Assembly (NCBI GenBank): GCA_035196065.1
Contig: CP136575.1
Location: 1,962,769 to 2,026,768, forward strand
DNA length: 64,000 bases
Reading direction: 5' to 3'
DNA from: Sphingobium sp.
GTDB lineage: Bacteria; Pseudomonadota; Alphaproteobacteria; Sphingomonadales; Sphingomonadaceae
Below, in pieces: positions 45,533 to 46,204 of the stretch. How positions within the stretch are numbered: position 1 is the first letter of the stretch; every line of letters starts with the position of its first letter. Both the position numbers and the translations under genes were made by a program. Under the pieces are notes generated by a model, which made no database searches, was not told the origin of the DNA, and saw only the letters and a program-made list of their open reading frames with translations.

Positions 45533-45572
45533 CGCCATGGTCCTTCCCTTTGGCGGGTTCAGGACCATGGCG
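45533..45572. terminator. Long inverted repeat between convergent pyrG and hsp20
   Basis: CGCCATGGTCCT (45533-45544) and AGGACCATGGCG (45561-45572) pair perfectly over 12 bp around a 16-base loop. It stands 17 bases after the pyrG stop and 31 bases after the hsp20 stop, as expected for a bidirectional terminator, although T-runs on either side are weak. Confidence 0.55.
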
Positions 45573-45602: not shown

Positions 45603-46076
45603 TCAGGCAGCTTCGCCAGCTTGCTTGTCACTGCCTTGCTCGACAAGCGTTGGCGTTGAAGATCCGATGGAGATTTTGCGCGGCTTAAGCTGCTCGGGAA
45701 CTTCGCGCTCAAGGTGAACTGTCAACAGCCCGTCGGCAAGGTCTGCCGCTTTCACAAAAACATGATCTGCCAGCTGGAAACGGCGCTCGAAATTGCGGTT
45801 GGCAATGCCAAGGTGCAGGAAATCGCGGTTGTCATTGCCATCCAGCTGTTTCTTGCCGGCAACGACCAGCAGATTTTCCTGCGCAGTGATGTCGATCTCG
45901 TCGGGCTTGAAGCCGGCAACGGCAATCGTGACCAGATATTCGGTATCGGAGGTCCGCTCGATGTTGAACGGCGGGTAATTATCGCCCTGCGCGGCGCGCG
46001 TATTTTCCAAAAGATCGAACAGGCGGTCGAAGCCGACGGTTGTGCGGCGATAGGGCGTGAAGTCAAAACGTGTCAT
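45603..46076 (-). CDS. Hsp20/IbpA-type small heat shock protein
   Basis: A 157-residue alpha-crystallin-domain chaperone that holds unfolding proteins. It starts MTRFDFTPYRRTTVGFDRLF, the class A (IbpA/HspH-like) opening, and the alpha-crystallin domain (about residues 35-130) has YLVTIAVAGFKPDEIDI, NRDFLHLGIANRNFERRFQL and the beta9 region GLLTVHLEREVPE. A V-L-V-type C-terminal motif is less clear (TPTLVEQG). The ATG at 46076 is fixed by GGAG eight bases upstream, which is buried in a ROSE-like hairpin. The leader also carries two further hairpins and a sigma-32-type promoter, so both transcription and translation are likely heat-controlled. Confidence 0.93.
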   Translation of the reverse strand: MTRFDFTPYRRTTVGFDRLFDLLENTRAAQGDNYPPFNIERTSDTEYLVTIAVAGFKPDEIDITAQENLLVVAGKKQLDGNDNRDFLHLGIANRNFERRFQLADHVFVKAADLADGLLTVHLEREVPEQLKPRKISIGSSTPTLVEQGSDKQAGEAA

Positions 46077-46078
46077 TC

Positions 46079-46169
46079 CAAATTCTCCAATCTGAGCAAT
46101 TTGCGGTTTGAAAGCCTGCCTGTGCAGCGCTTTCTGGGTTGGTATTGAGGGACCGATTGGCTCCCTCAA
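46079..46169 (-). ncRNA. ROSE-like RNA thermometer in the hsp20 leader
   Basis: Three consecutive hairpins on the minus strand. I: TTGAGGGA/TCCCTCAA (46169-46145). II: GAAAGC, bulged G, CTGC, loop ACAG, GCAG, GCTTTC (46134-46110). III: CAAATT, bulged G, CTC, loop AGATTG, GAG, AATTTG (46103-46079). Hairpin III contains UUGCU (46099-46095) opposite the Shine-Dalgarno GGAG (46088-46085), with a single unpaired G, which is the defining feature of ROSE elements. Melting of III would free the ribosome site of hsp20. Call rests on direct pairing; no covariance model was run. Confidence 0.8.
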
Positions 46170-46175
46170 ACCGGG

Positions 46176-46204
46176 AAATGGGTTGGTGCCGCAAAAAAAT
46201 CAAG
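46176..46204 (-). promoter_or_regulatory. Sigma-32 (RpoH) type promoter of hsp20
   Basis: Leftward CTTGATT (46204-46198) and ACCCATTT (46183-46176) are separated by 14 bases, close to the heat-shock consensus CTTGAAA-N13-17-CCCCATNT. The predicted start, 6-8 bases further on, falls near 46169, exactly at the first base of hairpin I of the thermometer. Confidence 0.7.

Follow-up and report, generated by a model that had tools for sequence, protein, structure and literature searches.

Relation to described ROSE elements

More than 40 ROSE elements, from diverse alpha- and gammaproteobacteria, are counted in the accessible part of one survey (PMC4166951), and Caulobacter is named among their bearers in that of another (PMC3669281), so that the sequence-only reading of this locus, which placed such elements mainly in the Rhizobiales and some ibpA genes, was too narrow. 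The core of the element, a Y-[G]-C-Y stretch with a bulged G opposite R-G-G/A, is usually taken as an anti-Shine-Dalgarno box. The Rfam family RF00435, which we take to be the rhizobial hspA-type ROSE, resembles the hsp20 leader of the 64,000-nucleotide stretch of Sphingobium sp. DNA analyzed here (the window) in several respects: it is the leader of a small heat shock protein gene, it has upstream hairpins, its last hairpin sets a UYGCU box and a bulged G over the Shine-Dalgarno (SD) sequence, and its consensus hairpin I has an unpaired G before CC. However, hairpin II carries a bulged G in the window and none in RF00435, the last stem of RF00435 includes the start codon whereas that of the window ends before it, and the window copy is not matched by the family's model.

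The ibpA leader of Escherichia coli K-12 is likewise built of three hairpins, all of them with a bulged G on the 5' side, and is preceded by a sigma-32-like sequence. Its hairpin I core (CGCC/GGG) resembles that of the window, whereas its hairpin II has U[G]U/AA in place of Y[G]C/GG, its hairpin I lies in a larger stem, and the whole stretch, unlike that of the window, folds little better than its shuffles (z, −0.96). The short ROSE-like ibpA thermometers of Pseudomonas, as the available text of PMC3669281 presents them, share the U(U/C)GCU box over the SD sequence and a temperature-insensitive hairpin I with the window but consist of only two hairpins in about 60 nt. The ROSE-G elements, in the portion of PMC12857270 at hand, also have an anti-SD box with a bulged G; they differ from the window in their CUGCU box, in a second bulged G in the opposite SD sequence, and in their position 5' of ABC transporter genes.

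The hsp20 leader and its probable promoter

The leader of hsp20 spans positions 46172 to 46074 of the minus strand. Read on that strand from 46204 to 46074, the DNA presents CTTGATT, 15 bases, CCCATTT, three hairpins, and the ATG of hsp20 (Table 1). The gene immediately 3' of the leader belongs to PF00011, which places the leader where members of the ROSE-like class are found, in front of a small heat shock gene. A perfect 12-base inverted repeat at 45533 to 45572 lies between hsp20 and the CTP synthase gene convergent with it and is perhaps a terminator common to both.

Table 1. Features of the hsp20 locus, in coordinates of the window
Feature	Positions	Strand	Basis and remarks
hsp20 coding sequence	45603..46076	-	ATG 46076-46074; 157 aa; Pfam PF00011, E 1.2e-18
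Shine-Dalgarno GGAG	46085..46088	-	Within hairpin III; read from sequence
Hairpin III	46079..46103	-	Fold; UUGCU box, bulged G46097, pairs with ribosome-binding site
Hairpin II, 10 bp	46110..46134	-	Fold; bulged G46128; pair changes in relatives
Hairpin I, 13 bp	46141..46172	-	Fold; recurs in relatives; bulged G46161, then CC paired to GG
Predicted transcription start	46168..46172	-	Spacing from -10 box; inference
-10-like box CCCATTT	46176..46182	-	Sequence; column profile of relatives C C Y A n n T
-35-like box CTTGATT, sigma-32 type	46198..46204	-	Sequence; CTTGA kept in relatives

Sigma-32 promoters have the consensus CTTGAAA, a spacer of about 13 to 15 bases, and CCCATNT. The sequence upstream of hsp20 agrees with it in its spacer and −10-like box and, imperfectly, in its −35-like box (5 of 7 bases). 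The sigma-32-like promoter claimed from the sequence was borne out by the relatives, in which both boxes are conserved in register. CTTGA occurs between −165 and −85 in 130 of 150 leaders, that of the window included, against an expectation of 0.08 per interval searched; the other 20 leaders lack it in the expected range. Its reverse complement occurs there in 8 of the 150. The −10 profile of the relatives lies at +21 to +27 from CTTGA, and the −10 box of the window sits one base farther from the −35 box than in most of them. This is likely a heat shock promoter of the sigma-32 type, presumably in use, and spacing would put the transcription start near 46168 to 46170, 2 to 4 nt inside hairpin I and not at its first base, where it had initially been placed.

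Fold of the leader

The 119 nt from 46180 to 46062 of the minus strand fold at −39.7 kcal/mol (z, −3.32), with 2 of 200 shuffles folding equally well. The fold recovers the three consecutive hairpins of the sequence-only reading, including the proposed 10-bp hairpin II with its bulged G, and every hairpin has one bulged G in its 5' arm, that of hairpin I (G46161) being an addition to the sequence-only reading. For hairpin III, the UUGCU box had been described as lying opposite GGAG with one bulged G. The pairing and the bulge held, whereas the first G of GGAG (46088) proved to lie in the loop, so that three of the four SD bases are paired: the partners of UU (46099-46098) and CUC are AA and GAG, respectively. 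The 3'-most hairpin thus contains a U(U/C)GCU box imperfectly paired with the SD sequence, as in ROSE-like elements, and the three hairpins in 94 nt fit the range of that class (two to four hairpins in 60 to just over 100 nt).

A short closing stem in the same fold uses −10 bases and the start codon; it would be absent from the predicted transcript. When bases of the promoter region were included, an alternative minimum-energy fold appeared in which −118 to −113 pair with CCGCAA from the base of hairpin III, which consequently does not form. Global folding of 127-nt leaders (58 of the 150 were folded) also often mixed in promoter bases and was replaced by local folding of hairpins.

Conservation in homologous leaders

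The comparison covered the 150 hsp20 leaders of the same order that were among the matches listed, paralogues and the window's own leader included. Of these leaders, 147 have UYGCU in their final 45 nt, compared with 32 of 450 control intervals taken from the same stretches (7%) and 232 of 3,000 shuffles. In three leaders of one genus (code g20; L034, L038, and L042), ACGCU or CUGCU replaces UYGCU before the SD sequence, possibly as a shifted box.

Pairing was assessed in an alignment (A2) of 68 of the 150 leaders, picked by the N terminus of the gene and by place in the list and aligned by sequence only. With the structure of hairpins II and III imposed, 92.8% of its cells make standard pairs, a share that falls to 57% or less when the partner is slid by one column, and 147 cells are changed on both sides, compared with 50 in shuffles, none of 500 of which scored as high. 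Compensatory changes, the lack of which in sphingomonad orthologs had been named as counting against the element, are plentiful in hairpin II, where 9 of 10 pairs show changes on both sides. In hairpin III, only 2 of 9 pairs do; covariation is weak there because the sequence is nearly invariant, and the pairing of this hairpin therefore rests on its conserved box and on the known ROSE elements. The number of pairs changed on both sides (11, of which 9 come from hairpin II) is the weak one among five covariation measures, being reached by 23 of 500 shuffles, and the shuffles ignore relatedness. The RNAalifold consensus of A2 contains hairpin II only. An earlier MAFFT alignment of 32 leaders across all three hairpins (A1) misaligned hairpin I and was excluded from the counts, which is why pair changes were counted for hairpins II and III only.

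Covariance models

A search with the Rfam ROSE model, the check that had been proposed for the window copy, came out negative: RF00435 gave no match there up to an E value of 10, and hence none reaching its curated threshold. Over the order, it matched 41 of 196 genomes at E values of ≤0.1, 13 of them over its cut-off, with none in the genome of the window. Among the listed places, 44 of 45 adjoin an hsp20 homologue (the 45th is in genome G001, for which the place of the gene is not listed), and one genome of the window's own genus is matched in its hsp20 leader (E ≤ 0.1). Over a sample of the class, 26 of 190 genomes were matched, none over the cut-off, and an hsp20-type frame lies downstream in 17 of the 20 places translated (28 were listed). 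Taken alone as a test for ROSE, Rfam is misleading at this locus, being negative at the window despite the comparative evidence.

Model R1 was trained on the 68 leaders, including that of the window, and its sole strong match in the window's whole genome is the hsp20 leader (E, 3.1e-8). The next matches (E values of 3.2 and 4.3) are followed by no more than short frames (47 and 46 aa) and were dismissed as chance. Over the order, R1 matched 80 of 196 genomes at E values of ≤0.01, many of which had supplied training leaders; over the class sample, it matched 27 of 190 genomes at E values of ≤0.05, 24 of which belong to other orders. In these 24 genomes, 23 of 25 places lie directly 5' of hsp20-type genes; the other two comprise one place 5' of an RpoH gene and one with no detected frame. 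Model R2, run on the window and 91 loci, was built from 33 leaders hand-picked from the 68 (alignment A3), with the window's genus excluded and its family kept. It scores the element of the window at 49.2 bits (E, 2.1e-8); elsewhere in the 64 kb, its best matches have E values of 7.4 and 8.9.

The place before the RpoH gene (L197:1501-1566; G312:C12:26606-26671) has a ROSE-like TATTGCTC..GGAGGATGT stretch directly 5' of the gene, with an R1 E value of 0.0146. The gene itself scores over the cut-off of TIGR02392, and the upstream hairpins have no G bulge.

A probable ROSE-like thermometer

Sequence, conservation, covariation, and model matches together make the hsp20 leader very probably an RNA thermometer of the ROSE-like type, with transcription from a sigma-32-type promoter; use of the promoter, the transcription start, melting, and translational control are inferred. 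The thermometer had already been proposed from the sequence, and the UYGCU box, the pair changes in hairpin II, the conserved promoter, and the Rfam matches in the leaders of homologues support it. The series of hairpins probably keeps hsp20 off in the cold and on in the heat. In the cold, the UUGCU box of hairpin III would pair with the SD sequence, imperfectly owing to the bulged G, and translation would be blocked; in the heat, hairpin III would loosen and ribosomes could bind, while hairpins I and II would remain folded. In nearest-neighbor folding, the mean unpaired probability of the SD sequence rises from 0.25 at 25°C to 0.38 at 42°C, and the 3' arms of hairpins I and II are unpaired at 0.03 or less. 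The calculated effect of temperature on the SD sequence is small and agrees with a thermometer in direction. That small and gradual opening would suit an ordinary sigma-32 leader that senses no temperature and whose hairpin over the ribosome-binding site is accidental, but the conservation of the box throughout the order, the pair changes in hairpin II, and the agreement with Rfam ROSE matches in sister leaders make such an explanation very improbable. The leader belongs to an already known type of element: judged by its features and, via its relatives, by descent, it is ROSE-like and lies outside the present RF00435 model.

A bulged-G core repeated in the upstream hairpins

In the window's leader, the 5' bulged G of each hairpin is followed by a paired C-Y, yet only hairpin III masks the ribosome-binding site. 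The core seen in hairpin III (Y-[G]-C-Y facing R-G-G/A) recurs in hairpin II, which in the 68 aligned leaders has G at the bulge in 67, C next to it in 67, G as partner in 68, and G after that in 65, within an outer stem that is variable. In local folding, 127 of the 150 leaders show a bulged G followed by C in at least one of hairpins I and II, compared with 15 of 450 shuffles; 51 leaders show it in both, compared with none of the 450. A test that uses no energies, seeking Y[G]CY/RG above a stem of four or more pairs 5' of the masking hairpin, succeeds in 135 of 150 leaders; it does so in 5 of 149 stretches farther upstream, which may differ in base composition, and in 147 of 3,000 shuffles, which keep composition only. 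When any bases were allowed after the bulge, a bulged G was found in 143 of the 150 leaders, C in 41, A in 29, and T in 25, the corresponding figures for the 149 control stretches being 46, 45, 23, and 29. Single-base 5' bulges are G in 92 of 105 cases in hairpin I and 93 of 112 in hairpin II, whereas the shuffles give 10 of 82 and 12 of 100, respectively. C follows the bulged G in all 92 of the hairpin I cases and in 86 of the 93 hairpin II cases. The window's hairpin I is the sole one among those 92 with an A-U pair below the bulge.

Such single-base bulges, mostly of G, also recur in leaders of other orders. In 38 leaders (of 45 loci, with the repeats L185, L191, L201, and L203 as well as L164, L165, and L194 omitted), 50 of 54 such bulges are G, partly by selection, since the loci were found by models already holding one bulged-G hairpin. 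Counted only in the hairpin that has no bulge in the model that found the locus, the bulge is present in hairpin I of 12 of 20 leaders from the R1 set and in hairpin II of 8 of 18 from the Rfam set; the totals with a bulge are 26 of 38 for hairpin I and 23 of 38 for hairpin II. Among 78 distinct enterobacterial ibpA leaders (from 80 close genes), folding gives a bulged G in hairpin I in 52 and in hairpin II in 77, and conservation is 95% or more for GCC..GGG of hairpin I and lower for the bases next to it. The Rfam ROSE consensus already implies the repeated core in its hairpin I. No description of a repeated core was found in the titles and abstract openings of the papers listed, a search whose coverage did not extend to the founding primary ROSE papers, and in a paper on Sphingomonas Hsp17 (PMC10434288), ROSE appears solely in the reference list.

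Hairpins I and II neither mask the ribosome-binding site nor melt in the calculation, so their conserved bulged G needs another reason. The simpler one, to which we give not quite an even chance, is that the bulged Gs of these hairpins only tune stability or cotranscriptional folding, sparing hairpin III from traps, with no binding partner involved. The failure of hairpins I and II to melt is in keeping with this, as is the report, in the accessible text of PMC3669281, that removal of the first three hairpins of Bradyrhizobium japonicum ROSE1 lowers responsiveness. However, tuning should allow other bulges or mismatches, and the near-uniform choice of G at the bulge and of C after it, at several times the rate of G in shuffles, is difficult to reconcile with it.

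It is also possible, although unlikely on balance, that the thermometer is combined with feedback, in which Hsp20 would bind the leader and repress its own translation until aggregates titrate it away, the bulged-G core being the recognition element or part of it. By analogy, the available part of PMC10474464 reports that IbpA in E. coli binds the leader of its own mRNA, whose translation it represses, that R93, R97, K98, and Y34 are needed for repression of ibpA and R93 also for leader binding, and that alphaproteobacteria conserve R93 and, at position 34, an aromatic residue. The Hsp20 of the window has equivalents of R93, R97, K98 (as R), and Y34, and R93, R97, and Y34 are kept in it and in seven aligned relatives. 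The second Hsp20 of the genome (L001; G000:C1:1425470-1425772) is distant, with 23% identity to E. coli IbpA. Its residues corresponding to R93 and Y34 are G and P, and UYGCU does not occur within the 60 nt that precede its likely ATG. As evidence for recognition by the protein, this pattern in the two Hsp20s is suggestive only, and R93 could be retained for other reasons. The presence of the core in hairpins that do not mask the ribosome-binding site, in the folding and energy-free counts alike, and the conservation of GCC..GGG in the enterobacterial leaders would also fit feedback. Against it, IbpB lacks R93 and yet its leader too folds to a bulged-G hairpin, the core of E. coli ibpA hairpin II is a different one, and the literature on IbpA self-repression, in the parts available, does not name the RNA determinant of binding.

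Significance

The locus extends a known class within an order in which it is mostly missed by Rfam's model. RF00435 underreports ROSE there, exceeding its cut-off in 13 of 196 genomes, whereas 147 of the 150 leaders sampled have the UYGCU box, and a better covariance model would annotate the element. As to the repeated core, we put forward as a doubtful hypothesis, drawn by analogy with IbpA, that the ROSE signature, more than an anti-SD box, is one copy of a module, Y[G]CY/RGG, whose repeats stand in stable upstream hairpins both in this order and, as far away as E. coli, in hairpin I of ibpA, and may provide recognition sites for small heat shock protein oligomers in self-repression. If this is true, a thermometer and an aggregation sensor would have been made from one module.
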